A stretch of DNA of 64,000 bases. It comes from Diaporthe sp. PMI_573 (taxonomy: Eukaryota; Ascomycota; Sordariomycetes; Diaporthales; Diaporthaceae). Both the position numbers and the translations under genes were made by a program. Where the stretch lies: contig JAJTUP010000010.1 in assembly GCA_021399435.1 (NCBI GenBank), positions 620,001 to 684,000 of the forward strand, written 5' to 3'. The notes under the pieces are model-generated. The model made no database searches. It saw nothing but the letters and a program-made list of their open reading frames with translations, and was not told the origin of the DNA. Every line of letters begins with the position of its first letter. Position 1 is the stretch's first letter. Positions 597-52,315 of this stretch are shown piece after piece.

Positions 597-2028
597 TGAA
601 AGGAAGAATGAGTCAAAAGGCCGTTGAAGATGTGGGCGTGATCTAGATCTCAGAAAAGGGGGAGCAGTTGATTGAGAGCATGGGAATCGGAGCAGTACGA
701 CAGGAAGCAAAAGCAGCTCAAAAGCCTATTTAAGTTACTGGGGCACTTGTGTATTTGCATATTCAGCTTCAGGATTTGGCAGTCCATTGGTCGTAGCCCG
801 CAGGTGCGGGGTCCAAATGCTGAGAGTGAATGATGGGCAAACATAGGTCCGTAAGGCTGGCACAAATGCAATGTACGGTGGGCCAGTTCCAGCATTTCAC
901 CGCTGTGGTACAATGCACAACCCAGCCACATTCGAGTGCAGCGCTTACCTGCCCCAGTCATTGGCAATCAAGGTACACGTGTATTCCTGTATTTGAGTCT
1001 TACACGCGGAGAAAGTACCTGGGGAGTCTCGCATGTCTATTTTTGAAAAGGTGTGCAGTAGCTAAATGGAGTCTCATGGGGATAGTTATTTCATTACACT
1101 GTTTTTAAGACAAACGCAAGATCTGCCATTTCCCACTGGATTTCCGCGTTACATGTCTAACTAAAAGTCCTGTCTAGTCCTCAAGAGCATGTAATGGCAG
1201 AGGACAAAACGCCGTAGTCATATACTGCTTACACCCATCTTCCTCGATCCTGCGTCACTTTGGTTGTGGGGTCATTCAGATCTCAGCCCACAGCCAAGGC
1301 AGCAATGCTTTCAAGGATGCACAGCTATCCGCTGTCAGCCCTCGAGAATGGCTTGAGGTATGCCGCGGCGGGGAACTGCAGCGACCCGGCTGCTCCGCTG
1401 GCCTGGGCGCCTCTTCACGTCAAGTCATTGGCTAGGTGCACGAGACCTGTGTACGCACATTTCCAGCCCCGATTATGTGGGACAAGGTATGGCTTTACGA
1501 AGAGGGTCTAGACTACCTATGCAGCATGCAGTACTCTTACTAAGCATTGAGCACATGGCCAATAGGATACACACATACTGTGCAGGTAGCACTCTACCTT
1601 TGCAAGCCAGCTGTGTCGCAAACGCAGCTGCCGGTGCGTTGTATCGCTTGACTCTCGTTACAAGACTAAGAGTGGTAAAGCAGTTTTAGGTACATTATCT
1701 AATAGCTCAGCTACTAAAGAAAAAGACTTTAGAACTGGCTGCATTAATGGGCCTATAGCACCCCTAAATTACAGCTTTTACAACTGAAAGGTTTCAGATA
1801 CGCAAGCAAATACGGAGCTTTTGATCCCCGGGAAATGCGAGTGATGACACATTTTGCTGACACTATGGCACTTGGAACAGTTGGCAAGCTTGATAAGGAG
1901 GATGAGTTACTATCTACCGACAGCTCGCAAGGCAAAATGCACCGATATAACAACGCGCAAAATCGACAGTATAATCTACCTTATGTACATGTGGTCCCAA
2001 ACCTCCCAGGTCTCTCGCTGACGCAAGT
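597..2028. other. Intergenic spacer, no gene recognised
   Basis: About 1.4 kb between the divergent CorA-like gene and the 3' end of the sugar dehydrogenase. Only short frames without family resemblance occur on either strand. I see no RNA gene or repeat here. The part next to 597 presumably holds the promoter of the CorA-like gene. Confidence 0.5.
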
Positions 2029-7133: not shown

Positions 7134-9361
7134 CTAGCCCAGCGCCAAAAGCAGACGTACCGGGTCCGAATCCTTCCACGCCGACTCCGGGATCTCGCCA
7201 ATGTTCATGCGATATGCTATGCCATGTTCTCTGCGGACGTGGATCGCAGTGATCACAGCCTCAAAGTCCAGCAGCTTTCGCCTACTGATGGCGATGAACT
7301 CCCATTCACCGGTATCACATCCATTCTCGTCGTAGTGTTCGGAAAGCATGAGTGAAGTTTTGCCAACAATCTCACGATTAGAATCGAGAATTTTGCAAGA
7401 ATACCCTGGGACGTGTAGCTTCCGTTCCAGGTTTCTTTCCACCATGAAAGTTGCACTCTCGGCCCAGAAGAAGAGAATGTGATTGCCTGGTATGTCAAGC
7501 AAAATAGCTTCCGTGAGGCTCGGGATCGAGCTCTGAATGTCGACAAGCTGGATGGCCTCTTCGTCGGACAGCGTGTGCTGATGATCTACTCGCTCGATGA
7601 TCACACGGTTGTCATATATTTCGTGACAAAAAAATGTCAATCAATGGCATCTCCCTGTACTGCCAATGAGTGGTTTATTTTCACGAACAGGTTGTGATGT
7701 GTCTTCAACATACCCTAACTCCAAACGATCGTCCGTCACCGAAAGATGCGTTTCTCCAACCCAGCCCATCCAGGACCAAGATGGGAAAGAGACACGTCGA
7801 TTGAGATCAGTCATACGCAATGTGCTGAGAGCCTTGCGTCTGACCTGCCCAGAGAAAGTATCCCAAGTCAGAGCCATACTCAGTCTCTTACAAGGGAGAC
7901 CCCAGAGCAACTTTAACCGTTCTCCATACATATAGAGTAGCGCTTTCTCTAGGCCTTTGAAAGCGTCATATACATCCCCTTGGAATCCAAGGTTTCGGCG
8001 TGTGTATCTTTCCACGACGGCACGATAGCGCCTCCAGAGCCTATCACTGGCGTCAGTTGGCTCTGTATACTGCTGATGCGCATTTAGCGACAGCTCGGAG
8101 CCACTATTCTCGAACGGCTGCAGGTAAGGCGGCCCGTGCTCTGAGTACGACTCTTCACAGAAAATGGCCTCGTTGCAGGAGAAATAGACTTGCTCTTCGG
8201 TAAAGACAAGGCACCGACTGGACAAGTATCTTTCCTGGAAAGTCCAGCCACGTGTGTTACATTTTGTCTCCTCCAGGTAATGCACCTTGACTGAACTTTT
8301 TGGGTTGCACGTCGTCATGAGGGACAATGCCGGTTTGGACTCCGTGGCTTGGGCAACAAGCACTTCCTTTTGCTGGAAACAGCGGGTCCCCGGGCGCAGG
8401 CCAGGTAATCCCGCCCCGGCGTCCTGATCCGAAGCCGCCACGATGGTGAATGATGCGCACCTGTAGATGTGACTCATAGCTTTGAGCTGGTCCGCCTTGT
8501 CATTCTCATCGTCCTGTATGATGCAAAGTGCATCCACCCATATGTATTGTATCCCGAGTCTCCGGCATAATTCCATTGCATCGATGATAGTCAGTGATGC
8601 CTGACCGTAGACGATGCTCTCATCCTCTGCGAGTTGAGCCTGAGTTTTCCGCGTCAGAGTGATTTTTTTGATTTGAACCCCAGACATAGCTCAACGCAAC
8701 ATATTCCAATGACTCGAGCGATGTGTCTTGGAGGGAGACGATCGCATTCTTTCCCGTGTCGACGAACCGGATCAACTTTGTTTTCGAGTTCGGCACGCCA
8801 CCCTGACCATTTTCCAGGCTGGGGTGACATCCGGCACCATGCTGCTCGGTACAGATACGTATCCAGCCCCATAACCAATCGCAATTAACAGTCATCAAGC
8901 GTCTGCGTCCACCAAAAATGGTCGGCTCTAATCCTTGTGGTGGGCCCAAAAGGTTCGAAGGCGGCTCCGCAAAGGCGGCGCCAGGGGTGCAAGCCTGGAA
9001 ACAATATTGTTCATGATGACCGTCCCAGTCCTGAACTGTGTGCTCCTTGACCGTAAAAATGCTGAGCCTGAGACTGATATGACAGTCATTCCTATCTCCG
9101 TTTGGCGGGTAGAGCACACCATAGTACGTGTTTGTCGCATTGTTCTCTCCTGGCTATTATTTCCCTCAACTTCCCAAGGTGAGTGGTGACTTGGCGATAG
9201 TCCCCAAGTCTCCCTCCTGGTCTGAACCACTTCTGAACGGCTTCAGCATCATGGCTTTGAAGTGCCACAAACTCTGAGTAGGTAGGACATCGGAGGTTGT
9301 CGAATGGGATTTTCCGACAGTTTTCGCAAAGACCTATGTCGTTAATTGAGTAAGAGGTCAT
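7134..9361 (-). pseudogene. HET-domain protein gene with a frameshift and in-frame stop
   Basis: The minus strand encodes a standard fungal HET (PF06985) protein. The N-terminus starts at 9361 with CENCRKIPF, then comes YVALSYVWG, then YIWVDALCIIQDD, an RGWTFQERYLSSR segment and FPSWSWMGW. The coding frame is broken twice. Directly after ALSYVWG a run of seven A (T on the plus strand, 8663-8669) shifts the frame by one. With six A it would read straight into ITLTRKTQAQL. Further on, a TGA at 7641-7643 interrupts a frame that stays open for another 168 codons to 7134. Near 9110 the frame also changes, but a 46-nt GT..AG intron can explain that. HET proteins trigger incompatibility cell death, and loss alleles are common. 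A homopolymer sequencing error could mimic the first lesion. An in-frame 75-nt intron spanning the TGA is possible. Confidence 0.65.
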
Positions 9362-10730
9362 TTCCTCGGCTGCGCTTTTGTACGGCGAGACTGAAGTAAG
9401 TATGATGGTGAGGAGCCTGAGATAATCGTAACTTCATTGTAAAGGTTGAAGTAGTCAGATTCTTTCAATCGGCACGATAAGAGTCAGCAGCCACGGCGTC
9501 TATGTAGGCATGTCATTCGTGGATGTGGATCCACTGCGGTAGGCAGCGTCACTATTTCCCGGTTGCACTGCCGTAAGCGCCAATGATTCGGCTGCCATGC
9601 AGAATCCTTCATAAACCAGTCGTCCTTTTGACGTGTTACACAATGGAGAACTCTGCCGCATGTTGTGCTGGCCTATATTTGGATAGTTCGTAGCCACCAT
9701 GTGATGACCCAACTGGTCAGTTTTTAGAATAATCAAAACTCATGTGCGTGTAAAGAAAATGAAGTTGACAACTGTTTTAACAGATTCTTGGTGATATTTC
9801 CTATTTGCTGCCTATTTTGCCTCCTGCAGACGACTTCAGACCGCCCACCGGGATATGTGATAATTGAGATCTGGGCGGGCTTCGCCCACCCTTCTTGCCA
9901 TGAAATAGGCCTGAATGCATATCACCTCGTTCTGACACAGACCTAGACTCGAAATCAATATTAGAATCAAACCCTGGGACGTCAAGTCCCAGCCATTTGA
10001 AAACCACAACTGCCGACAGTATAACGCCCGTGATAATATGCGAGAGGGCGTCATAAGCTTTTGTAGAGAAGATGAAGCCGGTCTGGAGCGATAGCAAGAT
10101 GTGGTTGGGGACAACATATTCATGATTGTATATTGGTGAACCCAAACTGAAGCACAAAAAAAGAAGATTATACACATGTAAAATCCAAAACTCTTGATAG
10201 TTCTCGTCTTGTTGTTCCGGCGTGGATGCTGGTACAGCGTGATGGCGTCGATAACTCAAAATATGGGTCGCCCTAATCACGCGTTCATTTAGTGAGCTAT
10301 TCAAGGTAGCATCGACATTCAGTACACAGGCGGAGACATCCCCTGCCCACTATCTATGGGCCCGCTAGATGTGATTGTGGGTCATTGATGTAGAAAGCAC
10401 GTCTCACACGCATGCACGATCATCCACATCCCAAATTTCTGTTGGCATGACTAGCTCCCCCCGCTTTGAGGCCCAGCACAGGAAACATGACATCCTAGTT
10501 GTTAGTATTAAGGAACTAACGGAAGGTATATGGTCTTGCTCACAAAAGTGGCGACTGCTTTCCTTCGACACCTGCACGGTTCTAGTTGCGGAGGTAGTCA
10601 AGTCGTTGGCCATAAACCAGCTGACGACCACGCAAAGCTTGGCTATCGACATCGAAACAAAATCTCTTCTGCTTGTTATTGTTTCATTGTTTCCTCACCA
10701 TTTTCTCAAGCTCGGTGCCGAGAGACAAGC
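9362..10730. other. Divergent spacer between two HET genes
   Basis: About 1.4 kb upstream of both HET genes, so it should hold their promoters. Its one recognisable element is a decayed copy of the crotonase 3' end, listed separately. Other frames here show no family resemblance. Confidence 0.5.
10031..10113 (+). repeat. Decayed duplicate of the crotonase 3' end
   Basis: The 83 bp align with 6749-6830, the last codons and stop of the crotonase gene, at roughly 88 percent by eye with one inserted T. Weaker similarity continues about 60 bp downstream. Several differences are G-to-A in TpG context (atgagc to ataagc, gtggag to gtagag), as expected from RIP. The inserted T breaks the frame. No other part of the crotonase gene is present here. 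Confidence 0.75.
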
Positions 10731-13204
10731 ATGAGCGACGACGGACTTGTACCCCTGGACGGCATATCAGATAAGATATCGCCGCTCTGCGACGTGTGCG
10801 GCCAAATTGGTACAAGTGATGCCCGCTGGTTTGTCAAAAGAGGGAAACGTTCGCAGCCCGGTCTGGGAATATACATCCACCAACCTGACCTGCATTCTCT
10901 TGACAGCAGCGCTCGCGGAGGTTGCAGACTGTGCTGGTTCCTCCTCTTGTCGATCCTGAACAGCGACGATGCCAGGCACGAGCCAACAACAGACGCAGCA
11001 ACAGATGAAAACATTGTGGCGAATATTCTGTTGAACTCCGGGACAGGAATCACGGTGGCCGACAAGAAGCTCCTCCTTCAAAAACACAGCCATGAGCTGT
11101 CACCCGCGATTGCATTTGTCTTGCAAAAGAATCTCAGGGATGCCGGAAACAATCAAGGCCTCGACCTTTTGCCAAAGCTATGTGGGAATGGGAGCATCGT
11201 TTTGATTGGCACCACTTATGCTAATCGACTTCCATTCAACTTGCGCGCTGTTGTTTTGCGACCTTTAGGTGCTTTGAGATTCTACAACATACCTTTAATT
11301 GCTGGGCTGCCGTTCGAACTCGCAGCTGGTCTCGGTAAGAGAAACCAGCTTCTATTCAGTCCTTACCTTGCTAATATTACGGAAAATTAGAGGATCCACT
11401 GGAGCCACTGGCGACCGCATGGACGGTCTCTCCGACGCTATTCACAGACAGCCTTCTGCATCGTATACGTGGCTGGCGTAAAATATGCTTTTCTCGCCAT
11501 TCCAAATGCCGTGAAATGAGAGGTCCACAGCCTCTTCCCAGCCGTGTCATAGAGGTCTCTGCCAAAGGATCCCCTCAAACAGTCAAGATTCGAGACTCAA
11601 GGGGACAATTCGGGACGTACGCCGCTCTGTCATACTGCTGGGGTATCTGTCCACAAATCAGAACCACCAAATCCACACTCGCGGAACACTTTAGGGGCGT
11701 CCGTGTTTCAATGCTGCCAGAGACGATCCAGGATGCTATCAAGCTGTGTCGGTCGCTAGAGATTCCATACCTTTGGGTCGACTCCCTTTGCATCGTCCAA
11801 GATGACTTGGAAGATTGGCATCATGAAGCGACCCAGATGGCTGCTATCTATGGTCGAGCGACGCTTACGATAACCACGCCCCAAAATAGCCAATGTGATG
11901 AAGGCTTCAGCACCCTTGGCAACGACCGAACAAGAGAATCGTCTCTACCTCAGCTATTATGGGAGCGCAACAAAGGGGAAGAGACTGTGACAGGGTTGGT
12001 TACTGCTCGACCGAAGGCCGTAGATTCAGGTGGCTGCTCTCCCTTCCCATATTCACATGGAAGGACACACTCACCCTGGATGACCAGGGGCTGGACATTG
12101 CAAGAATGGCTCTTGTCCCCAAGAGTGCTTCACTGTGGAAGTGAAAGAGTGTGGGATTGCTACCAGACATGGTACACGGAGACTCATCTGACAATTTCTA
12201 GTCCCTCAGGGGCTCTCAACGGCACTGACAGTGTCCGGGATGGTCTTGCCTCTCACATATTTGCGAGAATGGGCCGTCTGGACCCCACAATCCGCGAGGC
12301 CAGTCTTGACACTCATTGGAGTCGTCTGGTGGAGCACTTCACGTCTAGAACCCTCAGTCGCGCGATGGACAAGCTCCCCGCAATTGCAGGGCTTGCCACG
12401 AAATTCATGGAGCACAGTCACGCGAAGGCACCGGGGGCGATATATCTAGCGGGTCTCTGGTACTACAAGGGCATCAATCCTTTTGGCGGCCACACATATC
12501 CCACATCACAATTACCATTAGGTTTATTATGGAGGCGGGCTGGCGTTGAGTCCATGCAGTCGCCTGGAATGTATCGAGCCCCATCATGGAGCTGGTCCGC
12601 CTTAGATGGACCGGTGGGATTGTTCCGCCTCGATTGGCCCCTGGCTTACGTCTTTAAAAAGACTGATGATTTTAGGCTGATTCCGATGTTGGAAGTAAAA
12701 TCTGCTACATGCTTATTCGACCCACCTGGCTCATATTCTCTGGCCCAGTCAGCGTGGATCATCGCTAGAGGTCCACTCAGGCGTGCCCATATCAACCCGT
12801 CGGGCAAGGTTGCCCCCCTTCAATCGGCTTCCCATAGCGAATACAGCCGAACCTTTGTTAGGCTCGATACGCATCAAGGCCGCGAGGAGTCGTCCTGGTT
12901 TGGAATATTTGATGAATTTTCAGAACAAACAGGGGTAGACTACGTCAACGAAAGTTTGTACCTTCTGCACGTGGCAGCGGTTGTTCGCACTTCGGATGAC
13001 GGCAAAGTCACCGATTTCATCCATCATGCCCTTATACTAGAGAGATTGGGCAGCTTCAACAACTCTGATTGCTACCGCAGGCTTGGGGTTGGCTGGTACT
13101 CTTCGAGTGAAGCGAAGGAAGCGGCACATTTAGAATCAGCGTACGGTTGGAGCGATAGGAAGATGCTCAAGTATTGGGAATACTGTCAGGTGCGCTTGAT
13201 TTGA
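10731..13204 (+). CDS. HET-domain (heterokaryon incompatibility) protein
   Basis: Two exons, 10731-11334 and 11391-13204, joined over a 56-bp intron (GTAAGA..TTAG), give 805 aa. The N-terminal part has CDVCGQIG and a CRLCWFLL cysteine pair. The splice yields the linker with W..IC.SRHSKC that precedes HET domains in this class. The HET core follows: YAALSYCWG near residue 275, IPYLWVDSLCIVQDD near 325, TRGWTLQEWLLSPR near 440 and APSWSWSALDG near 600. All three HET blocks are intact. It starts head-to-head with the broken HET gene and ends tail-to-tail with the next one. The ATG at 10731 was chosen because it precedes the Cys motif. The recognition partner is unknown. Confidence 0.9.
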
Positions 13205-13640
13205 CAGGGTGTCAGTGTCGAGAGAATTACAAGATGCGCATCAATTGATAGATTTGTACAGACATTCCTTGTTCGACTGGAGCAACCAAGCGGCGAAAGG
13301 GCAGTACTAATCAGGTGCCGTTCGATTGCATTTGAATAGCTTGAGCGTGATATTGAAATGCGCTTTTTGTATGCATATGTGGGACTAAATGTGTGGACCA
13401 AGAGAGAAGGATGGCCTTGGGGTTTACATTGCATGTGACTGACAACGCTCGTCGCCACCGAACGTCGAGGTTTGTTTTTCGCTTAACTGGAGGAAGATGA
13501 CAGCGATGGGAACATTGAGCTGGATGATGCGACTGCTAGGACTGTCTGTTTGAGATCCGCTGAGACTCAAGAGTCAGTGAAGAAAGATATTGCTCTTTGG
13601 GAGCGGCCAACGTACCTGACGTGTTCGCTACAGCTCGCCT
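13205..13640. other. Tail-to-tail spacer of two HET genes
   Basis: The 436 bp between two convergent stop codons, which should hold both 3' untranslated regions. No repeat, RNA gene or further coding sequence is seen. Confidence 0.5.
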
Positions 13641-15959
13641 TCATATAAACACAAAGTCTTGAAGACCGCATTCTTCGAAGTCGACGCTTGACTTATAATT
13701 CCCATTCTCTTTCATGAGACCCAGGTATCTGTCGCATAACTCGTCACAAGGGAAATCGAACGAGACGGTTCCAATTCGGCGAAAAGTGTATGGTAGTTCC
13801 GCCGCTGGTACCTGTTGTAAGAGGAGGCCGAAAACCGTGAGTCCGGGATCGCGATCAGAGAATTCCTTTTTCCAAAGGGGCAGGATATGAGTATGACCTT
13901 CCCAACGCCACCCCTGCCCGGCAACCTCCTGTCCCGAGAAAACGGGGGCATCCTCAACGTCATATTCAGAGTACACCCTTGTCGCAAACTCCCTCCAATG
14001 TGGTAAATCCTCCAGCTCAACTGCGAGTCGTCTCAGCGGTCCTGTCATTTCCAAACCTCGCACGCTCGACTTCTCGAAAGTCGTAGTTTGTAGGTCAGAT
14101 TTGAAATTTGGAGTAGACGATAGTACTTTGAAACAAATCCCGTCGATCGGCGACCCGATATAAGCGAGGCTGTATGATGAGGATAAAGATGCCCACGACC
14201 ATGAAGGCGCGATCTGTACAGAAGGGATTCTCCTTGCCTTCTTATCAGTTGACCATGCCAGAGACCGGACGAGATCTCCTTCCCACATCCCCGCAATGAA
14301 ATTATCATCATGTAGGGCATCGGCGTAGATCCGCGCTATCCCAACGACTGCCGGGAAGCGGTCCGTTTCAAAAGTCAACTCAGTAGTAGCGTAATGTCGA
14401 ACAAAATCATGCCATGATTCGTAAATATCCTCCCGCGAGCTATTGGCATTGATCAAGCGTATTGCGCCCGCTCCAAAAGATTGCGCAGTCAGCCAAGGTA
14501 AGGTAATGGTTGGAAAGGCTTCGTTGACGACCTGTTGTGTGCACTCCCACCACATCTGTCTTGGGGTGAAGTGTAAGATGCCAGGTGACAGAGCGCGCTC
14601 CTGAGCTACCCAACCTCGAGAGGCCAAAGTGCCTCCGATGATATCGTCGTGGAAAAGACCGGAGTCTGCTCTAATGTAGATCCCATCGTAATGAGTTTCT
14701 ACTTCCTGTCCTTTAACTTCGCTCACTAGGGCAAAGTCCGTTCTTATCGGGTAATTGACGAATGACAGAGCCATTCTTTCACTGAATAGCTCCGTCGTGC
14801 TGCTTTCCACGTAGCCAGACGCCGACATATTACACTGTGCGCACCTGTAGTAATCTCCCATTTTTGCTGCCTCAAGCTTCCAATCTTGCTTAGATCCCTG
14901 GAGGATACAAAGACAGTCAATCCAGATATATTCAATATCAAGCTGACAGGTCATGTACATGGCGTCTTTTATGAGGGTGGGCAGCTGATCCATAGGGATT
15001 TCGTGTCGAAGTGTGTCGGCATTCGATTCCTCAAGCTTCAACATTGTACCATCACCCCAGCGATAGCTTAGTGTTGTGTAACGACATTCCACACCGGGTG
15101 ATAGAGTTTTCGTTTCACAAATACTGGCAGCAAGCCCGGACGAGGAACCGTGACCAAGCATCTGAACCCGAACCAAACGCGTGGGCGGAGCTGTGGATGT
15201 ATTTCTTCTCAAATTGCGGCAGCTTCTGTGGTCCAAGCAATCTTTGTACCAGGATCGCGCTAAATCGATGCTTCTCGCAGAATTCGCCGTTGTTTTGCGT
15301 AGTGTAAGATCTGCATATCTTAGTTCGAGTCACACTAAAATTGGGAAGGTAGGATATGTTGGCTTCTCACCTCGAAACTCTGGCCCGAGGCCGAGGACCT
15401 CGGGAGGAAAAAAGTCCAGAGCCACGGGGAACATGTGAGGGCCATCACTGAGCCGTTGGCCATCTTGTCCACAAAGAAAAAAGTATAACCTTAGTCCGCG
15501 GATCCCCTCCCACCAATCCCATTCCCATGTTTCGGGTTTGCACCAAATTGACGATGACTGATCCGTAGTTGTTCGGAGTTGGGGATCCTCCCTAAACCGC
15601 TCCTCCAAGCCCTTGGTTAAATCCAGGCAAAGAGGGCAGCCACTGTCAACGGATTGCTTCAGTGAAGACAAAGAAGCATGGTACACCTTGACGCCTGTTC
15701 CTTGAAGAGTCTCCTGTCTGAGGTATTGAGGATGAATCTTGAACTGTCCTTTGAAAAAGTTGCCACAGATGGAGCACAGTCGCAAAGCCATCTTGCTCAA
15801 CGTCTCAGAAAGATCTTTGTCCAATTTTTTGGTCGGGGCAGAGCCTCTGTCCTCGTCCCTGCTCAACTCCTTCAGATCTTCATCTCTAATACCTCTGCCG
15901 TACTCGTCATTGTCGCAGTCGTCATTGGTGCTGTTGTTATTATCGTGTTCCATGAGCAT
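13641..15959 (-). CDS. HET-domain (heterokaryon incompatibility) protein
   Basis: Two exons on the minus strand (15959-15371 and 15310-13641) joined over a 60-bp intron (GTGAGA..GCAG) give 752 aa. The N-terminus is acidic and Asn/Asp-rich, then CSICGNFF and CPLCLDL form the usual cysteine pairs. Across the splice the frame continues into the pre-HET linker LARSWYKDCLDHRSC. The HET blocks are YTTLSYRWGDG, IEYIWIDCLCILQG, SRGWVAQERALSPGILHF and APSWSWASL. Later starts, such as the Met about 57 residues in, just before the CSIC motif, are possible. It is predicted to act in self/non-self recognition. It differs clearly in sequence from the neighbouring HET protein, so the pair is not a recent duplication. 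Confidence 0.9.
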
Positions 15960-16920
15960 ATCTGCGGCTTTTTCAATGCCTTCACCCGTTATCAGGTCAA
16001 GGGTCTGGCTCTCAGCGATCTGGAGGACCGGTCATTCAAGTTGGATTGATGGACTAGGTGGTGCAGCTGGTGAGCATCCTCGGCTGTGGAACATATTGTA
16101 GAGTGCGGTGTGTGAGAGAAATTGTGTGTGAGGCTGCCTCCCTTCCTTGTGTCCGACAATCGCGCAACCAAGGACCCATGTCCCTGGTGCGTGGCACGTG
16201 TTGAAATGTGGACCCTTTAAGAGGACCCAGTCCGCTGCTGAAAGACTGGAGCTAATGGTGCTCAGTTCGCGATCTGACAACGGAGAGGATGCTGCGGCGC
16301 GGGATGTAGAGGTTCCCAGGACACAAATGGCGTTGAGCCTCTTCGTGAAGGAGGGCCTAAAACAGGGCGGATATAATTATAAGCGGTATCGATCAACCTT
16401 TAGAGCTGCTATGCGAACGATTTGAAGTGAACGCGGCTACAGTGGCCGGATTATCCATGGCCGAGTGACATGCCTCCTTGACCAGCTCAAGCTGGTCGCA
16501 TGATACCCACATCAGGGCCGACCAGGGCGCGGAATTTGACCTCTGTGTAGCCTCTGCTGTTATTGCCGTGGAGGTCAGGCAACATGAGGTTAGGAAATTT
16601 TTTAAAAAAATACAGGTTCCAAATATTTGGCCTGGAGTAGATCCACAAGGTCGCGCGCGTTCGTGTACAGTTAGGTTAGCGTACCTCCAAGTTCATGCGG
16701 GGGAGATCCCACGTCGTATGACAAGGCCTATCTGAGTATCCCGACGAAGCACTGGCGAGTAGAAGTGGGGAGGGGATAGGGTGACAGGTTAACGATGCGG
16801 GGAGAGCAACATTGAACGATTTGCTATAAAATGTGTCCTCGGCAATCCGTTGTTCACGACGTCAAGGCTGAGTACGCTATTATGCATTGACCGCAGCGAC
16901 GTCACGAGTGAACCTGCATC
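15960..16920. other. Divergent spacer HET/SDR
   Basis: About 960 bp upstream of both the HET gene and the short-chain dehydrogenase. Short frames on the plus strand show no family resemblance. A TATA-like element for the dehydrogenase is listed separately. Confidence 0.45.
16825..16831 (+). promoter_or_regulatory. TATA-like element of the SDR gene
   Basis: The sequence tataaaa lies about 90 bp upstream of the dehydrogenase ATG, a plausible distance for a fungal core promoter. The call rests on motif and position only. Confidence 0.4.
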
Positions 16921-18522: not shown

Positions 18523-18870
18523 CTAGATTCCAGCAAAGGGCTCGACATCCTCGCGTTTAATTCCCGCGAAGGGCTCAACCTCTTCGTCGCGCTTGATGCC
18601 TGAGAACGGCTCAACTTCCTCCTCACGCTTTATTCCAGCAAAGGGCTCGACCTCTTCCTCTCGCTTGATCCCGGCGAAAGGCTCGACTTCATCATCACGC
18701 TTGATGCCAGCGAATGGCTCAACATTGTCGTCTCGCTTGATACCCGCAAAGGGTTCAACGTCGTCATCGCGCTTGATTCCGGCGAAGGGCTCGACTTCGT
18801 CGTCACGCTTAATCCCAGCGAAAGGCTCGACTTCCTCACGCCTGATGCCCGCGAAGGGCTCTACCTCATC
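18523..18870 (-). repeat. 36-bp coding tandem repeat, ten units
   Basis: Ten copies of a roughly 36-bp unit, each encoding one core plus its acidic spacer and dibasic site. Synonymous third positions differ between copies while the core residues hold, suggesting the peptide is kept by selection rather than by recent expansion. Confidence 0.85.
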
Positions 18871-18942
18871 TTTAGCAACCGGCACCGCTACCGCAGTCGC
18901 GATCAGAAGCGTGGCCACAAAGGCAGTGAGGGAGGCGTGCAT
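18523..18942 (-). CDS. Kex2-processed repeat protein; candidate RiPP precursor
   Basis: An intronless gene for a 139-aa protein. The start at 18942 was chosen because a hydrophobic signal peptide (residues 1 to about 21, ending AVAVP) follows at once. The whole mature region is ten near-identical repeats, with core VEPFAGI preceded by two or three acidic residues and followed by KR (RR after the first copy, nothing after the last). One copy reads VEPFSGI. Signal peptide plus tandem cores with dibasic Kex2 sites is the architecture of fungal KEP proteins, including precursors of dikaritin RiPPs (ustiloxin, phomopsin, asperipin, epichloecyclin families) and of alpha-type pheromones. A UstYa-like gene starts 1.3 kb away, divergently, which favours a RiPP. 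The peptide itself is not one I know. Confidence 0.85.
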   Translation of the reverse strand: MHASLTAFVATLLIATAVAVPVAKDEVEPFAGIRREEVEPFAGIKRDDEVEPFAGIKRDDDVEPFAGIKRDDNVEPFAGIKRDDEVEPFAGIKREEEVEPFAGIKREEEVEPFSGIKRDEEVEPFAGIKREDVEPFAGI

Positions 18943-20204
18943 GATCGGGATAATAGGCCGGGGTCTTTGGTCAAGTGAATAGTAGTATACGATTCCTGTC
19001 CTGAATTTCATCAAAGTTAAAATTTATGACACACTGAGAAGCAAAGCGTCTTCTATAAAGTCTACAAGACTTAGTTCACCCACCGCGATCACGTTATGGA
19101 AATTGTCATACCTCGCACAATTCCTCTCGGAAACCGACCCCACGGCTGCCACCCCGTGCCGGCTGACAGCATATCCAGCATTCGTCACTGCCATTCTGTA
19201 TCCCTTTGCCATCGAAACACACTAACTACTAGGTCGACGCCATGTATTCCCACGAATCCACCGGCAGTTGTCTGAGCCGGGCTACCCGCGCGGTTCCTCG
19301 TCCACGATGGCCTCCACGGCTGCACCCATGGGGCGTAGTGCTTATACCTGTGGTCGCAGAGGATTAGGGTGTTCACTCTTGCATGGATCAGATGATGAGG
19401 GATCCACGAATGACTGCTTGCGAGGCTGTGACCCCCTCATGAAACGACATATGCGGGAGCTACTGCTCACTAGATATGTTAACCTCCGAAAGGATTTAAT
19501 GCTCTATGCGCCGAAGCCATCAGCTGACGGAATATGCACAACGCATCACCCTCCGTGCCCACTCTCAACTTTTGGTGTGACAATTCAACGTGAGACAGGT
19601 GAATTGTCCGGCTCACCGCTCAATTTGGACCTCACGGAGTGGCACAAAGTGGTGTGTGTGTGATGGGATCTTTCGCTTGAGGATCGTTACACAACGGTCA
19701 CTAGATATCTGCTACTGCTTATATTTCTTGGCCATGAGCTTGTGGACTCCAAGCTTCGGACCTGTCAGCGTCAAGAGGTGTCACTTCTTGTTCGCAACCG
19801 AGACATCCGGCCTATCGAGGCCGTAGTTGCGAATCCATTTCCCCGCGCTTCCTACAACTCACCAGAACTAAAGGGCCAATTGGGATTTGGTTTCTGTCCG
19901 TTGGCATGCTTCCCCGAGAAATCACTAATGCAGATGCGGAGTCCTTTGAATCCTTTCGAAACCCCGTGGGGGAAGGAAGATACCCATGTCCGGATCTGAC
20001 CTATAAATCCGGGGTAAATCCTCCGCTAGTTGTTAATATAATACCATTGGGTATCTATGAATGCGAGTTCTCCTGGAGTGGCCTAGATACGGTATCTCCC
20101 CAGCATCCCACCGGCATTTTCCCTTGTGGTTTCCTCGTCTCTCGTCTTTGTTTCTCCGTGACATTACTGAGACTTCCACCCACCTCTTACACAAATTTCA
20201 CGAG
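18943..20204. other. Divergent spacer precursor/UstYa-like gene
   Basis: About 1.26 kb between the two start codons, which should carry both promoters. It contains several frames without family resemblance. A TATA-like element on the UstYa side is listed separately. I could not identify a shared regulator site. Confidence 0.45.
20002..20008 (+). promoter_or_regulatory. TATA-like element of the UstYa-like gene
   Basis: The sequence tataaat lies about 200 bp upstream of the predicted ATG. Motif and location only; transcript starts are unknown. Confidence 0.35.
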
Positions 20205-21112
20205 ATGGCTAGCAGAGACGACTATACCCCAGTTGACCGGAGGTCCTTCAGTGCTGATGATGGGTCTCGGTCATTATTGTCCCATGATGAAAAGATGCAC
20301 GAATTTGATAGGCGACGGCCCGCAAAGAGGCGCATGAATTTTATCCTGAAGTCGTTTGTCTCCTTGTTGGTCTTGATAGCGCACGCAGGATTGGTCGCAT
20401 TCCTTATGAACTGGTTCGGAATTGTTCTGTGGGGCGGATCTCGCGGCACCGTGACAGGCGATGGCATGACCGCACAACACGGTCATGGAGGGCACGGTGA
20501 CAGCTCCTGCCAGACGGACAGTACTCACGTCCGGTATGGTTTCGAGGGAGTCATTCCCGCTGTTTACAAGGATCCCAATGCCGAGTTCTCGCAGATAAAC
20601 CCCTGTGGTCACAGCGCAGAGGAGGCGAGGGCTCGTGGCTGTCGATATGGCATGTTGTACGGCGCGTGGCTACCCGAGGACTGTTATGACGAAGAGACAG
20701 AGGAGAATTTCAAGAAGTATACGAACTGGAGGTTCTGGCTGCAGCAGAACCGAACCGAGGAGGTTAGCTGGGATGAGTTAGCCAAGGGAGAGCACGAGTA
20801 TGTACTCGTGGAGTGGGAATGTGAGTTCTATCATCATGATCATTTGAGATCCGCAAGTCGGAATGATGGTTCACCTGCTCACAATTCGCAGACCACCAAC
20901 GCCACTGCGCCGAGATGAACCGGAGGCTATTCACTGCCGTGTCCAGGAGAGGCCTGCATACACTCGACTCGTACCTGTCACAGTGGGATCACATCGATCA
21001 CTGCGCTCACTCTGCGATGGAGCAGCGTCCGTTGCACGAAATCAACGCGATTCTTTGGCGAAAGTTCCCCGATTGCGGGCTAGTACGCTGGAAGGACGGA
21101 CCAAAATACTGA
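20205..21112 (+). CDS. UstYa-like membrane protein with two HxxHC motifs
   Basis: Two exons (20205-20820 and 20892-21112) with a 71-bp intron (GTGAGT..GCAG) give 278 aa. A basic cytosolic N-terminus is followed by one transmembrane segment (about residues 46-72). A lumenal domain has CRYGMLYGAWLPEDCYD (146-161), an N-glycosylation sequon NRT, and the two motifs HQRHC (207-211) and HIDHC (239-243). The splice completes the Tyr codon just before the first motif. Paired HxxHC motifs define the UstYa/DUF3328 group, oxidases that crosslink or cyclise core peptides in dikaritin RiPPs. The CRYGM..W.PE.CYD block marks a related subfamily found widely in ascomycetes, not always with a RiPP. The divergent repeat precursor next door is the main reason to infer peptide modification in the secretory pathway. 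Confidence 0.8.
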
Positions 21113-31530: not shown

Positions 31531-32781
31531 TCAACTCGTGCCCAGAAAATTAAGTCGCGGAATATGACGGGGCAATGCCCCCAGCAGGATGTCCTCCATC
31601 CCACACCTTAAAGCACTCGCCTTTGGAAACCTGCCAAGAAGGCGGCGTACTCGGATGAATCTCTTGACACCATTCACGTCTTCAAGTCTCTTAACAAACA
31701 TTCCTACCACCATGTCCCTTGCCCCATGCAATTCGCACTCCAGAAACGCAATATGGTCATCGTCCATGAATCCCATAACCCCTTGGTCGTCATTAGGGCA
31801 GACCCTCATCTTAATTCGCAAGTACCCGTCGTTGGGCGTCTCGAAAGGCGGCGCCCAGTGATCGAGGATGCTGACCAGCCGGCTGTAGGACGCGCGGATG
31901 TCCCCCAGCCCTGCGAAGCAGCTCGGGTGCGGGGCGTAGAGCGAGTAGCAGAGGACCGAACTGGCGCTCCCCGCCTGGTCATACCACGCACCCCAGGCGA
32001 ACAGGCTCTGGTCGTTGGTCTGTTTCGCGATCTCGGCTTGCAGACGGGCGAACGCTTTTGTTTCCCCCTCGCCGTAGAGCAAGGGCATATGCACGTCGAA
32101 CAGTCCCATCAGGCAGTAGGCGAGATCCTCGGCCCGGGTCGTCTGGCGCGACGACGCCCACGATAGCTTCTGTGCCACCGATAGGAGGTGTAGGGATTGG
32201 CGCGCCATGCCGCCAGCGCAGAGGTTGTACCATGCTGGGGAGAAGAGGCCGGCGGGGATGGAGGTGATGTCCTCAAGGTACGAGGAGAGTGATGTCTTGC
32301 TGCCAATCACGGCCCAATTCTTGTTGTAGAACTCCACACTGGACGGCGCAATTAATTCCTGTAGCGTCCAGCCCCTTGTGAACCAGCGGGACTCGGCCAG
32401 CGCGTCCGCCAGCTCTTGCTTTGGCGAGGAGGCATCGACCTCTACATCGACAAGATATGCGAAGCAGACTGCGGATTTCTCGTAGTAGCCATACATGCTA
32501 TTGATGGCCTCGGAGAGCTCAGTCGACGATGACTTGTCGATACAACAAGTATCGATCCATATCCAATCGTAGCCCTGGGACCTGGCGAGCCGGCATGATC
32601 CAACCACCTTCGGATACCTGCGCTTCCTCAGCCAAGCGGCGGCACGCTGCCACCTGGGCTTAGGGAGGAAGACTTCCAGGGGCGCCTCTTGATAGCCCCA
32701 GGTGTGTGACAGGATTGCGTACTCGGGGCATCGCCTTGTGAATGTCTTCAACTCAAGGGTAGTGGTGTCCAGGAGCCTCAT
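31531..32781 (-). CDS. HET-domain protein of the HET-E/NLR N-terminal type
   Basis: A single exon of 416 aa. The start at 32781 was chosen because MRLLDTTTLELKTF is the stereotyped N-terminus of this HET class. Blocks are YAILSHTWG near residue 25, YDWIWIDTCCIDKSSSTELSEAINSMYGYY near 75-105, then RWFTRGWTLQELIAPSSVEFY near 135 and AEDLAYCLMGLFDVHMPLLYGEG near 235. In this class (as in HET-E) the domain can be the N-terminal effector of an NLR, but here the protein ends without NACHT or WD repeats. It is therefore a stand-alone HET protein, a common form. It is the fourth HET locus in the window and of a different subclass from the other three. Inferred role: triggering cell death on non-self recognition. 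Confidence 0.9.
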   Translation of the reverse strand: MRLLDTTTLELKTFTRRCPEYAILSHTWGYQEAPLEVFLPKPRWQRAAAWLRKRRYPKVVGSCRLARSQGYDWIWIDTCCIDKSSSTELSEAINSMYGYYEKSAVCFAYLVDVEVDASSPKQELADALAESRWFTRGWTLQELIAPSSVEFYNKNWAVIGSKTSLSSYLEDITSIPAGLFSPAWYNLCAGGMARQSLHLLSVAQKLSWASSRQTTRAEDLAYCLMGLFDVHMPLLYGEGETKAFARLQAEIAKQTNDQSLFAWGAWYDQAGSASSVLCYSLYAPHPSCFAGLGDIRASYSRLVSILDHWAPPFETPNDGYLRIKMRVCPNDDQGVMGFMDDDHIAFLECELHGARDMVVGMFVKRLEDVNGVKRFIRVRRLLGRFPKASALRCGMEDILLGALPRHIPRLNFLGTS

Positions 32782-34416
32782 TATGAGGCCACATGGTCCG
32801 AAATGCTCCAGAGGCTCTGTTGATATGAGTATAGGTGTTGGAAGATTCCGGCTGCAAAAACAGCCCTCTGGGAGGCTGCCTATCAAAGAGGGGCAATCGC
32901 CGCTGTGCGATCGCTAGCTCGGATAAACCGGTTGTGTGGGTGTCTCGAGCGGTTCTGGTGGTGTTATGATCAAGACTGCGTAACAGAGGCGCAGCACGCG
33001 GGATAGCAAGGAGGTCGTTACATTGAAGGATTCTGAACCTTGCCCAACATCTCCGATTGGTCACGTTTCAATTGTGCCCCCAGCGCCCCCAATCTTACGT
33101 CCTAACTTGGCCATTCAAATCATCCTATCAACGACATGCCAAAGCTTGATGCGAAGCGATCTTCATCCCCGCTGATGCACTACCTCGAAGTATGGTGAGA
33201 CAAGTTCAGCCTTAGACGCTAGATGACGCATAAGTTTACAACAATAAAACAGGTCTATTTTATCAGCACGATACTTTTATTGGCTTCAAAATGCAAAAAG
33301 CTGCAGCCACGGAGATTTCGGAGTTAAGGACGCCCCCCCCCCCGGCTCTATATCTGTCGTTGAGGAGCAATTGAATTCTGATATCCCTGCTTGTGTGGTC
33401 TACCATTCGGGTGGGAACAGTAAGGTCCATCGCGCTATAACCGCCAATCATGCAGTATATTACAAGGCAGACCTCTTCAAGGACGGTCTACCATTAGAAG
33501 CTAGGGTATCTTTCGGTGCGACTGTTGTAATATATTGCGTACTTTCTGTTATCACATACTGCTGCATGTCTGCAATGAAAGCACCTGATAAACTCCAATC
33601 TAAATTTTCCATCACAAGGCATTGAATGTTGATTAAGATATGCCACGAGCACGTGTGGCCTCTATCTCCTCCTAATTCGTCTTTGGTAACGTGCTCATGA
33701 AGTCGCTGGAGGGCTATGTAAGATTTTCGGTGGAAATCAAAGTGTCGTATAGGACTAACGAGAAGTCTTTCTGCCTGTGAACACGAGAAACTTTGAAATG
33801 ACTCCTTGTGGCAAGTCAGACTAGTCCTCGAAGCGCTGATTCCCAAGGCCCCGTGTCTTAAGTTCGATCTCGTCCAGGAAAAGTGAAGACACGAGACCCA
33901 GCCCACTCAGCCCGGTCATAGTGTAGAAAATGGCTTCGAACGATTCGAGGTACACCTGCAAAACCGCAAAACCGCAAACCCGCATCCAAGCTTTCTGCAG
34001 GGACTTTGAGTGCCCCCAGCTTGGAATAGGGATATGTGGAGCCTATTAGTAAAGTGTTAACCCCGGGTGGAATTATTGAGAGCTTTTGAGAAAGGTCAGT
34101 ATTCTACTCCGGCGTATAGAGATTAGTAGAATGCCAGCCTTTTTATGGTGAACTTAGGTTATTCTTTAGTAGTTAATAAGCCGCTATGGACTGTATATGC
34201 CGGGATTATGTCCACTTCATTTTCCCCACTTCAACATTATGATTGTTGTATGGAGTTAATACAGAACAATGGGCCTCAGATGGCCGTGGTGAGTTTTGGA
34301 TAGTCGTTGGGGAACATGATTATTTCGGGTCAATTCATAATCACCTGCTGTGAAATACACTCTACATCTGCAGACATTTGAGTGGATGAGTGGAAGCCAC
34401 ATTGGCGACTGACACA
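32782..34416. other. Long spacer, nothing recognised
   Basis: About 1.6 kb of AT-rich sequence between the HET gene promoter side and the 3' end of the ABC transporter. It contains a 12-base C tract near 33330 and a short tandem (aaaccgc) near 33960. No coding feature is supported. Confidence 0.45.
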
Positions 34417-39860: not shown

Positions 39861-40752
39861 GATTTTCACGCCTCAAAGATGCTCGAAATAGCGAGTAGTG
39901 CAAGATATGGCCTATCAAATCGGGTCAAATGAATCGCACTGAGCAGATTGGAAGCACGCTTCCATATTGGTGGTTTGCAGCAGCTCAAGGGTTGAAATGG
40001 AACGGACCACGTGTAGAATAATCTGCCCATGGCGGACGCGGCAGGGCGGCACTGAAAGCCCTGGAGGAGTTTGTTGCTTTTCCGCCCCCCCTCCCCCCCC
40101 AATACACATTACACCCCCGATGCGGTCAGCGCGCGAGAAGTCACACCGAATCTCGGTAACGGATCCTTCCATTCCTCTGTATGCTGGGCGTTAGATTCCA
40201 TGCCAAGGTTTAGATAACGTATGTTATGAAAACTTGAACGACAGGGCCCCCGTGCTTGACCCTCGCGTCAGCATGCGTGGGGTTTCCCGCCAACTTAGCC
40301 AATCGCTTATGAGGTGGCTCATGAACAAAATGTACAATAATCGCCTGATGGCCTCGGAGCGATGGAGGCTTTTGGGCTAATAAGCTGCATTTGCAATCCA
40401 AAGCGAGCACAACATTCACAACATCTTACATTTCAACGTTGAATAGGTCTAGATTGCATGCAGTAAGCCATGATGGCCACCATCTCGACTGCACGTCAGA
40501 TCATGATTCTCGGATCCTCATTCTCGGGCTTTTGATGTGACAGCCTGATAGAGACCATATAAACACGTGTCTCGATTTGAACTCACCGGATATGTGTACA
40601 CTTGGTGTTAAGACCTCGGAAAAGTGAGGGAAATGGTGGGCTTTAAAAGCAGCGCGTGGCTGATCGAAATGGAAATTCGCTGAGAGTCAGCTCCATGTTC
40701 CCCTTTCCTTCTTTGAATATTATCAAGCAAAATCCAGTTCGTAGCCTTCAGG
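39861..40752. promoter_or_regulatory. Shared divergent promoter region, ABCC transporter/PKS
   Basis: The 892 bp between the two start codons must carry both promoters. A TATA-like element (tataaa, 40558-40563) lies about 190 bp before the PKS ATG. A pyrimidine-rich block (40079-40099) and several short motifs are present, but I could not assign a pathway-specific regulator site. Confidence 0.6.
40558..40563 (+). promoter_or_regulatory. TATA-like element of the PKS gene
   Basis: tataaa directly followed by a cacgtg E-box-like hexamer (40564-40569), about 190 bp upstream of the PKS ATG. Assigned by motif and distance only. Confidence 0.4.
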
Positions 40753-43700
40753 ATGAGCACCGAAACCCGCATCGCAGTTGTCGGCATGGCCTGCCGCCTG
40801 CCTGGTGGTTCTGATTCGCCCGAGGCCCTTTGGTCCATGTTGGCCGAAGGTCGGGACGGCTGGACTGAAGTTCCCAAGGATCGCTGGGACTGGCGTTCGT
40901 TCTATCATGAGGATGCTGAGACCAAGGAAGCCCTGCACTTCAGCCATGGATACTTCCTCAACAAGGACCTCTCCGGCTTTGACGCGCGCTTCTTTGCAAT
41001 CCCTCCCTCCGAGGCAAACGCTGTCGACCCTCAACAAAGGCTCCTGCTTGAGGTGACCTATGAGGCCCTTGAAGACGCTGGCATTCCCATAGAAAGCTTA
41101 CGTGGCTCGAATACGTCGGTGCATATGGCCATGGTGAGTATTATATCTCACATAGACTTGATGGATGAAGAAGAATCCCATTTGTTTGTTTCTGGAGTCA
41201 ATTTGGGCATGGCTGTCTTGAAAGTCTCTTCGATGTGGTAACAAGCAATATTGATAAATTCTGTTAGTTTCCTCGAGACTATGACAGGATGGGATACGCA
41301 GACGGCAACAAAACACACAAAATCCACTTGTTGGGCTCGGGTGATGCCATCATGTCCAACAGGATCTCCTATGTACTGGACCTCAAGGGATCCTCAAATA
41401 CTTTAGACACGGGATGTGTAAGTTTTATTCACTTCGCCAAAGGTGTATCAGCCCCTTTCAGCACTTCTATCCTGCTGACAAAGAGCCATACAGTCTGGAA
41501 GTCTAGTGGCATTGCACCAGGCTTGCAATACGCTGAGGGCTGGTGAAGCACCTCTCGCCCTGGCCGGGGCCAGTCAACTTATATTGACCCCTGACCAATC
41601 CATCGCAATGTCATCGATCGGGTAAGCAAAGGCTCCGATAGGTTATCGTTTAAATTGTTTGCTCTTTTGCTTATCCGGGATCCGAGCAGATCGCTCTTGA
41701 ACAAAGACGGGAAATGCTACACCTTCGACGACCGTGGTTCAGGCTACGGACGAGGCGAAGGCGTTGGTGTTCTTGTCCTCAAACGCCTCGACCGGGCTCT
41801 GGCCGATGGTGATCCGGTGAGTCACCTTCCGAATTCTTAATCTTCGCGACCCGCTGTCAAGCCCATAAAGGGGAATATTTACTCAGCTACGTCCTGTCCT
41901 AAGGAAAATGATTTCACCTTCAGATTCATAGGATTGTGCTCCAAGTCTCCGTATGGTTAGGCAACTACTAACTAGTATCTACCCGCCATCTCCAGGTCCA
42001 TGCAGTCATTCTGAACTCGGGAGTCGGCCATGATGGTAAGACCGCTGGCATCAGCCTGCCCAACGCAGACGCACAGGCTGCGTTGGCTACTTCGGTGTAT
42101 GCCACGGCCGGCCTCGACCCTACAGAAACACTATACGTCGAAGCACACGGAACGGGCACTATTGCCGGCGATGCAGCGGAAATCAAATCCATCGGCCAGG
42201 TCTTTGGCCGCGATGCCGGGAGAAAGTCGAGCTTGCACGTCGTAAGTCTCTACCTTGCGCAGCTGATGAAGCTCGTGACTTGGCCCGTGACGCTGTGATG
42301 ATATTGACTCCGTGTCTGTGTGAAAATAGGGGAGCATCAAAACCAACATTGGGCATCTTGAGTCATCAAGTGGTGTAGCAGCCGTCATAAAGGGCATCAT
42401 GATGTTGAAGAAGAATCAGATCCCACCACACCTCAACTACATCAACCCGAAGCCGGGTCTCAACCTTGAAGAGAGGGGAGTCACAGTAAGTCGCCCACCA
42501 GCCATGTACACATGGATCGCATGTTCAGGCTGTTATTGATATTCTGTCCCCAGATACCACTAAGCCTCCTGCCATTAGCACCAGCCGACTATACAGGTCC
42601 CAGGCGGGTGTCGATCAACGGTTTCGGATACGGCGGAACAAACGCCCACGTAGTTATCGAGGCCTATGAGGAAGAGAACTACTTGTCGACTCCTGATTCT
42701 GGGGTTTCCAGTGGACACAGTAGCACCCACCTTGACGCACCCAAGTCAGTCCCAGTCGTCATCTCAGCACACTCGGAGAAATCCCTCGGCAAGTTGTTGT
42801 CCAACCTGAAGGACTGGCTCACCTCGGACCAAGGTCGCCAAACCCCGTTCAATTCCTTGGCGTATACGTTGAACGTGCGGCGATCCAAGCTCCCCTGGCG
42901 GTGCAGTATTGTCGCAAGCAGCACCGAAGAGGTGACAAATGCGCTGCAGGACTCTCGCCTCCGAAAGGTGAGGGCAGCCAGGGCGGCCAACCTAGGTTTC
43001 GTCTTCACCGGCCAGGGAGCTCAGTGGTTCGCCATGGGCCGCGAGCTCTTGGTGAGCTCGCGCGTGTTCGCGGGCGCCATCGCGGCTTGCAACGAGGCGC
43101 TCGAGGGCTTCGGATGCGAGTGGAACCTTGCAGAGGAGCTCTCTCTGCCCAAAGAGGCCTCCCGGCTCGGAGAGAGCAGGTGGGCCCAGCCGGCCACGAC
43201 GGCCATCCAGATCGCACTTGTCGACCTCCTCAGCGAGTTTGGTATCACGCCTGAGACCGTCCACGGTCACAGCTCAGGCGAGATTGCCGCCGCGTATGCG
43301 GCTGGTGCACTGAGCAGGGACGGTGCGATGCTGGTCGCTTACCACAGGGGCGTGTGCTCGTCCATGGCCAAGGGCTTGAACGCGACACAGGGGGCTATGA
43401 TGGCCGTTGGCGAGGGGGAGGATGCAGTTTTCCAGCGCATTCAAGATCTGAAGAGCGGTCGCGTAGTTGTAGCCTGTGTCAACAGCCCGGAAAGTACCAC
43501 CGTTTCTGGCGACCTCGCGGCCATTGAGGAGCTTGAGACGGCTTTGAACGCCGCGGGGGTCTTCAACAGGCGGCTGAAAGTGGACTCGGCATACCATTCC
43601 CACCATATGCAAGTTGTGGCAGACGCATACCTGGCGTCTCTGAGCGAGCTGGATCATACGGCGCCGCAGGAGAACATCGCCTTTTACTCATCTGTCACAG

Positions 43701-51562: not shown

Positions 51563-52315
51563 TCAAGTCTGGTTGATGATCATGCTGATGCCACCAGCTG
51601 GTCTCCGCTCACTGTGTAAACAACGTAAGCCTTGCAACCCCTGTTCTCCTCTCTCACCCGGGCATCCTCTTTCGCCGGGACACCCTCTCTCACCTGGCGG
51701 TCCTGGCTCTCCTCTCTCGCCCGGGCATCCTCTTTCGCCGGGACACCCTCTCTCACCTGGCGGTCCTGGCTCTCCTCTCTCGCCCGGGCATCCTCTTTCG
51801 CCGGGACACCCTCTCTCACCTGGCGGTCCTAGCTCTCCTCTCTCGCCCGGGCATCCTCTTTCGCCGGGACACCCTCTCTCACCTAGCGGTCCTGGCTCTC
51901 CTGGTAAACCATCCCTTCCGTCACGTCCCGGCAAACCTTGATGGCCGGGCATGCCTTGAGGGCCCGGCATGCCTTGATGGCCGGGCATGCCTTGAGGGCC
52001 CGGCATGCCTTGATGGCCGGGCATGCCTTGAAGACCCTGCCCCCCCTGTGGGCCTGGAGGGCCCGGGGGACCCGGTGGACCCGGTGGACCTGGCCAGACT
52101 GGCTGTGGCCTAGGAAGTTTTGGCGATCGAGAACCTCGACGGGAGGGCGGGTCTCTACGCCTTAGGTAGACGCAACAAAACCAAAGAAGAAAGGCAAGGC
52201 CGACGGCTAGGAAAACACCGAAAACGATCAAGCCTGTGCGAGCGGAGTCATCAGTGCCGGATGCGTCCCTCTTTGGCGTTGTTCTTTTGGAATATTCGGG
52301 TGCTGCACATCGCAA
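51563..52315 (-). CDS. Collagen-like repeat membrane protein
   Basis: A minus-strand frame of about 250 residues: a hydrophobic segment ([20 protein letters not shown]), a basic stop-transfer patch ([14 protein letters not shown]), then about 50 uninterrupted Gly-X-Y triplets ([25 protein letters not shown] units) and a short non-collagen tail. This is the layout of a single-span membrane protein with a collagen-like stalk outside the cell. Collagen-like proteins are known in some fungi, such as Metarhizium MCL1, which is an immune-evasion coat protein. Any such role here is only conjecture. The frame has no ATG before the membrane segment, so an upstream exon (between about 52320 and 52405) must supply the start; I could not resolve the splice. 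Cys residues in the GERGCPG units could crosslink chains. Confidence 0.7.
51649..51911 (-). repeat. 63-bp coding tandem repeat, about four units
   Basis: Units start at 51660, 51723, 51786 and 51849 with exact 63-bp spacing and almost no divergence. Each encodes seven Gly-X-Y triplets. The near identity implies recent expansion or homogenisation. Confidence 0.9.
51941..52040 (-). repeat. 36-bp coding tandem repeat, about three units
   Basis: atggccgggcatgccttgag recurs at 51941, 51977 and 52013, a 36-bp period encoding four Gly-X-Y triplets ([12 protein letters not shown]). It is adjacent to, but distinct from, the 63-bp array. Confidence 0.9.

Follow-up and report, generated by a model that had tools for sequence, protein, structure and literature searches.

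In Diaporthe sp. PMI_573, two small genes placed head to head, one for a repeat precursor with the core VEPFAGI and one for a membrane protein with two HxxHC motifs, may together make an undescribed modified peptide. The pair lies in the stretch of 64,000 nucleotides analyzed here, hereafter the window, and its features are collected in Table 1 along with those of comparable loci elsewhere in the genome. The reading that we lean toward, with modest confidence, is that of a Kex2-processed precursor of the RiPP type whose product would be oxidatively modified by the facing HxxHC protein, a UstYa-like protein that Pfam models do not detect. This proposal builds on the anatomy of the precursor, the selection acting on its core, the divergent arrangement of both genes, the HxxHC architecture of the second one, and the linkage of its family to UstYa genes and to one other precursor.

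Table 1 Features of the VEPFAGI locus and of other repeat loci in the genome. Positions without a prefix are those of the window.
Feature	Position	Strand	Description and basis
VEPFAGI repeat-precursor gene	18523..18942	-	139 aa, single exon; translation, sole own-genome match, relatives P0002, P0003, P0035 and P0036
Putative signal peptide (residues 1-19, cut after A-V-A)	18886..18942	-	Sequence, hydrophobicity, -3,-1 rule
Ten-core array (9 VEPFAGI, 1 VEPFSGI), nine KR/RR sites, acidic spacers	18526..18864	-	Codon table, pS/pN, 36-bp tandem repeat
Divergent intergenic region between precursor and HxxHC gene, 1,262 bp	18943..20204	.	Measured ATG to ATG
UstYa-like HxxHC membrane protein, 278 aa	20205..21112	+	Two exons (20205-20820, 20892-21112); splice model, relatives, profile similarity
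Intron of 71 bp, just upstream of the first HxxHC	20821..20891	+	GT...CAG borders
First HxxHC (HQRHC, residue 207)	20894..20908	+	Sequence
Second HxxHC (HIDHC, residue 239)	20990..21004	+	Sequence
Six-copy precursor, core AGTTNGIGVI, with signal peptide	L052:9530-9910, contig C144	+	Repeat scan
Repeat ORF YEGDTEDDIKKR, Tyr-containing, without signal peptide in the same ORF	L053 ~2565-2921, contig C142	-	
UstYa-type ORF preceded in frame by four Tyr-containing repeats (like AEDIREETYTRAGAMNYPKT)	L062:2358-3236, C66 ~53857-54735	-	

That the precursor is a real gene can be held with near certainty. Its reading frame is intact, with the start ATG at 18942 and the stop TAG at 18525-18523, on the minus strand, which the earlier note had not stated although its coordinates were exact. 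The protein begins with MHASLTAFVATLLIATAVA, continues with a short stretch and ends with the ten cores. The Kyte-Doolittle mean over residues 5-20 is 2.39, and the cleavage site of the putative signal peptide was placed by the -3,-1 rule. An array of ten VEPFAGI cores, all separated by KR or RR, had been described. Ten cores are present, but only nine read VEPFAGI, the eighth being VEPFSGI; nine dibasic sites are found (eight KR and one RR), but the first core, preceded by PVAKDE, has none. Its N-terminus must therefore come from signal peptidase and trimming. After each KR or RR, the spacer has two or three residues, which are D or E as claimed apart from a single N, and nothing is left over at the end, the last residue of the protein being the Ile of the last core.

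The precursor thus has a predicted N-terminal signal peptide and at least three near-identical repeats parted by KR or RR, the layout of the fungal KEPs (Le Marquer 2019, PMC6339444; Umemura 2020, PMC7329392), where near-identical peptides, three or more, lie between KR/RR sites behind a signal peptide. By its anatomy it is, as proposed earlier, a Kex2-processed repeat precursor, which would be cleaved and secreted as such. A proprotein-convertase P-domain, as expected in Kex2, is encoded at two genome loci, both outside the window region. When the assembly (83.7 Mb, 217 contigs) was searched with the precursor protein, the single match was its own gene, and a search for a paralogous precursor in the genome with the relative P0036 returned the same gene alone. 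A Pfam match of the precursor to HTH_49, a Cry35 domain (whole-protein E 2.7e-7), was discarded as a repeat artefact because it amounts to a ten-residue match in one repeat and no stretch passes alone.

The codons of the cores show that the array is maintained for what it encodes. Among the copies, variation is seen in all seven third-position columns of the core but in only 1 of the 14 first- and second-position columns (Fisher P 7e-5), and the NG86 estimates over all copy pairs are 0.75 for pS and 0.013 for pN. Silent sites are free while the protein is nearly constant, and therefore the VEPFAGI peptide is under selection; the repeats are old and are held constant as peptide. A 36-bp tandem array does exist at the locus, and the frame could in principle be a chance or non-coding tandem repeat. 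The codon pattern already contradicts this, the frame is intact and the relatives keep both core and signal peptide, so that the probability of such an origin is practically nil.

Relatives of the precursor were sought in a database of 5.8 billion proteins, in searches that each scored only about 8,000 candidates, those sharing most words. Four were found, P0002 with eight cores, P0003 with four, P0035 with two (one VEPFAGI and one VEPLAGI) and the degenerate P0036, and none of the matches among these scored candidates is a named protein. P0003, P0035 and P0036 have a CGSCE motif, either following the signal peptide or at the end, which is absent from the precursor of the window. No relatives were found in viral contigs, and the back-translated core pattern has one match in each of three bacterial contigs. 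EPFAGI was not found in the literature searched, although it may be listed in the supplementary tables of the KEP surveys; the conserved-motif section of one of them names other cores and not VEPFAGI (PMC6339444). The core thus deserves the description of unfamiliar that it had received. High sequence diversity between genera is a feature that KEPs share with this precursor, while the absence of VEPFAGI from the literature searched sets it apart.

Two further readings concern the class of the peptide. Alpha-type mating pheromone precursors have the same overall build of signal peptide, repeats and Kex2 sites, and the earlier note had kept them among its options. Their cores follow the pattern WCxxxGxxCW, and Ste13 removes their X-A or X-P dipeptide spacers. 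Neither VEPFAGI nor VEPFSGI contains this pattern, and the spacers consist of D, E and N, without X-A or X-P dipeptides, which makes a pheromone very improbable. An exact scan of the genome for WCxxxGxxCW gave six scattered single hits against three in the control, so that no alpha-pheromone gene was identified for comparison. Also, multi-copy secreted short peptides can be structural or surface-active, and can coat hyphae as the fungal repellent proteins do. For the present precursor such a function appears improbable, though somewhat less so than a pheromone: the core is short, its flanks are acidic, the copies hardly vary, and such a function would leave the paired oxidase-like gene unexplained.

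This paired gene, which the earlier note had not included, faces the precursor head to head at 1,262 bp. Its HxxHC motifs are invisible to a frame-by-frame reading because an intron of 71 bp separates the first of them from the upstream exon. Splicing yields VEWEYHQRHC, as in the relatives that extend past the intron. A search of the window for HxxHC pairs 60-330 nt apart on one strand returned a single pair, the one in this gene. The spliced protein has one hydrophobic helix within residues 44-76 and the HxxHC(x)nHxxHC architecture of UstYa/DUF3328; against Pfam, it matches no family at E<=1 and does not pass the PF11807 model. Its 31 database relatives comprise 9 that reach past the intron, all in agreement with the splice model and all with both motifs (from Thozetella, Pseudomassariella, Pestalotiopsis, Podospora and others), and 22 that stop before the motifs, in most cases recognizably at the intron. 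Among the latter is the closest named match, the Diaporthe batatas protein KVR01_012283, with 86% identity over 74% of the query; identity in named fungi outside Diaporthe is 52-66%. No description of this protein family was found in the literature searched.

The AlphaFold model of the orthologue P0005 is poor (mean pLDDT 61.5, pTM 0.38), and no structural claim is therefore made; the model matched no PDB structure at E<=10. Sequence matches in the PDB, to ribosomal proteins (weak) and to the chain sc-CC-6-95 (E 0.006), were not usable and were disregarded. The region between both genes is a possible shared promoter. It contains palindromic CGG-Nx-CCG sequences.

Other genes of the window include one at about 20 kb from the precursor (40717-50968, plus strand) that probably encodes a highly reducing polyketide synthase ending in a carnitine acyltransferase domain (Carn_acyltransf E 7.6e-88), and a collagen-like ORF (51563-52363, minus strand; PF01391, E 4.8e-28) with near-identical 63-bp repeats and a hydrophobic segment. 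Also, several large HET-domain-like ORFs lie at 7134-16031 and 31531-32913, of which Pfam confirms only that at 13641-15329.

The DUF3328 proteins are described as membrane-anchored, dimeric enzymes with a binuclear copper site that use O2 and carry HxxHC(x)nHxxHC, and hydroxylases, halogenases and cyclases are given among their members (PMC12435403). The same source describes copper- and O2-dependent activity for CctR. Like CctR, ApnU and AprY as presented there, the facing protein has a membrane helix near its N-terminus and a pair of HxxHC motifs spaced by about 30 residues. Moreover, two HxxHC motifs have been suggested as a reliable mark of the DUF3328 proteins related to RiPPs (PMC12048977). 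The facing protein differs from UstYa/DUF3328 in that its family has a CGxxxxEAxxxGC region of its own and extra Cys and Trp residues, and gives no score with the Pfam model.

Further members of the HxxHC family are encoded in the genome. The spliced protein as query returned 20 rows, made up of its own two exons and 18 other hits. Both HxxHC motifs are present in 16 of these 18, within one ORF in 14 cases, across two ORFs at C184:207812, and in an ORF without the upstream region on C57; at C124:114236 and C90:154007, no HxxHC was seen on their strand within the 3.4 kb examined. The PF11807 (UstYa) model had 81 hits in the genome, and 12 of the 18 family hits lie within 5 kb of one of them, in intervals that make up 0.65% of the genome (binomial P 3e-22 over 19 rows, counting the own gene as a miss, a value to be read with clustered rows not being independent). 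After merging of the rows to loci, the linkage is 10 of 15, with the own locus again a miss. The 12 linked hits are genes separate from the UstYa hits, at gaps of 148 bp to 4.7 kb. No PF11807 hit falls in the window, and 191 kb separate the HxxHC gene from the nearest one on its contig, in an exon-by-exon search that intron-split genes could escape.

When 23 members were aligned (14 genome ORFs together with 9 database relatives), they shared the CGxxxxEAxxxGC region and further Cys and Trp positions ahead of the motifs. The 14 ORFs were picked by script for the motif pair, and the invariance of the motifs in the alignment is therefore by construction; the 15 UstYa ORFs of the genome used for the other profile were picked in the same way. 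Aligned with hhalign, the two profiles matched with a probability of 95.7 (E 9.8e-9) across 69 columns that include both motifs; the reversed profile reached 0.5, and none of ten column shuffles exceeded this value. The nine database relatives alone, which were not picked for motifs, reached 86.8 against the UstYa profile, and masking of the invariant His and Cys lowered the full-profile value to 9.4. Given this drop and the way the ORFs were picked, the case for a common origin with UstYa depends on the motifs. On sequence grounds, the family is UstYa-like in architecture, and beyond the motifs its profile match is weak, at the masked value.

A finder for runs of at least three similar Kex2-delimited repeats was applied to 12 stretches, the window and 11 regions that cover 14 of the 18 other family hits. 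Five ORFs were returned at a similarity of 0.45 and four at 0.5, compared with 0.15 per shuffled set at 0.45 and 0.0-0.05 at 0.5. Of the 11 regions, 2 contain repeat ORFs, one of which includes a signal peptide, and a third has a fusion-like ORF; the other eight gave no clear single-exon precursor. Around the remaining four family hits, 3-4 kb were scanned at a stricter setting and no repeat precursor was found. Two further ORFs from the scan were discarded as false: one is a three-run in L062, and the other lies antisense to the collagen-like repeats of the window. A short ORF on contig C163 (L030 ~812-1035, plus strand) has four repeats that end in DGFKR or DGFKA and lies beside UstYa hits.

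The closest parallel to the pair of the window is on contig C144. Here, the six-copy precursor (ATG at L052:9530, plus strand) is head to head with a gene of the HxxHC family (ATG at L052:8423, minus strand) at a distance of 1.1 kb, and UstYa hits lie 6-9 kb from the pair. Its core AGTTNGIGVI has no aromatic residue, and its copies show a pS of 0.55 and a pN of 0. On contig C142, several UstYa hits and a family member are near the repeat ORF. On C66, the repeats have QR between them and KR and RR at their bounds, as if precursor and enzyme had been fused. On the other hand, no precursor was found beside the family members that, like that of the window, are more than 20 kb from any UstYa hit (C185:1126292/1128309, C160 and C13), and these three regions count against a general partnership with precursors where UstYa is missing.

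These observations also bear on the main alternative, in which the products are linear, unmodified peptides of the VEPFAGI type that serve as signal, hormone or effector, while the HxxHC gene is coincidental or acts on another substrate. We regard this as a serious but less probable reading. According to one survey (PMC7329392), 22% of the fungal repeat precursors are near DUF3328 genes and most are not, 6,120 of 7,878 having none among the 15 closest genes. Moreover, PF11807 is absent within about 190 kb of the precursor, relatives of the HxxHC protein occur in fungi where no relative of the precursor was found, and the scanned regions with UstYa-free family members were without precursors. 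Against linear peptides stand the strong link of the family to UstYa hits, the second head-to-head pairing of a family member with a repeat precursor on C144, and the fact that, within the window, no gene other than the direct neighbor of the precursor has an HxxHC pair.

Conservation of the two partners differs, the HxxHC protein being more widely conserved than the core with its four relatives. No contig was recognized as shared between the listed relatives of the HxxHC protein and those of the precursor, two of the latter being on contigs of 37 and 171 kb. Since the HxxHC protein is the more widely conserved, and synteny is known from this genome alone, the pairing may be lineage-specific or accidental.

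For the preferred reading, that of a product modified by the facing protein, we infer a sequence of events at the VEPFAGI locus that extends through cleavage, trimming, topology, copper chemistry and modification to a biological role. The precursor would enter the ER through its signal peptide; Kex2 would cut after KR and RR, and a Kex1-type carboxypeptidase would strip the basic pair. An aminopeptidase would probably trim the two or three acidic residues, a step implied by the variable length of the spacers if one product is made. Each precursor would yield as many as ten copies of a peptide based on VEPFAGI. The HxxHC protein, presumably a single-pass membrane protein with its double-HxxHC domain in the lumen, would act within the secretory pathway as a copper/O2 oxidase that hydroxylates, desaturates or cross-links the core, the candidate sites being the side chains of Phe, Ile, Val, Pro and Glu. 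The calculated [M+H]+ of VEPFAGI is 732.3926; loss of 2H would shift it to 730.3770 and gain of O to 748.3876, the latter coinciding with unmodified VEPFSGI. The two genes may share one divergent promoter; the lumenal oxidase would encounter the precursor in the ER or Golgi before Kex2 frees the cores.

By analogy, the locus would work like a dikaritin locus. As in the loci of ustiloxin, phomopsin and asperipin-2a, a repeat precursor lies beside a membrane-anchored double-HxxHC protein; victorin-type peptides are grouped with the dikaritin RiPPs as well. It differs from them in having no PF11807 hit within about 190 kb, a core without Tyr, and a facing gene from a UstYa-like family without a Pfam model. 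As PF11807 was searched for and not found, the locus is not filed as a dikaritin. The earlier note had argued that a UstY cross-link would have to use Phe or another residue. The search for PF11807 gave no hit within about 190 kb, but the facing protein has the double HxxHC; the lack of Tyr was correctly seen, but weighs less as an obstacle, since the C144 core, near UstYa hits and free of aromatic residues, argues against a strict need for Tyr.

Finally, these data raise the possibility, which we put forward tentatively and consider less probable than its contrary, that a second family of double-HxxHC copper oxidases, undetected by Pfam, exists beside UstYa and modifies Kex2-processed repeat peptides, including those with Tyr-free or aromatic-free cores. 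If this is true, a share of the precursors counted as unaccompanied and presumed linear would be modified RiPPs, and the VEPFAGI locus, where a single precursor faces a single enzyme and no classical UstYa was found nearby, would represent the simplest form of such a pairing. An enzyme family without a Pfam model escapes surveys based on Pfam, and a genome-mining tool with profiles for biosynthetic proteins that have no Pfam model exists (PMC11109268). Should the family indeed modify such peptides, its profile would re-sort the unaccompanied precursors and find chemistry away from Tyr cross-links, for which the VEPFAGI pair, consisting of only two genes of small size, offers a compact test case.
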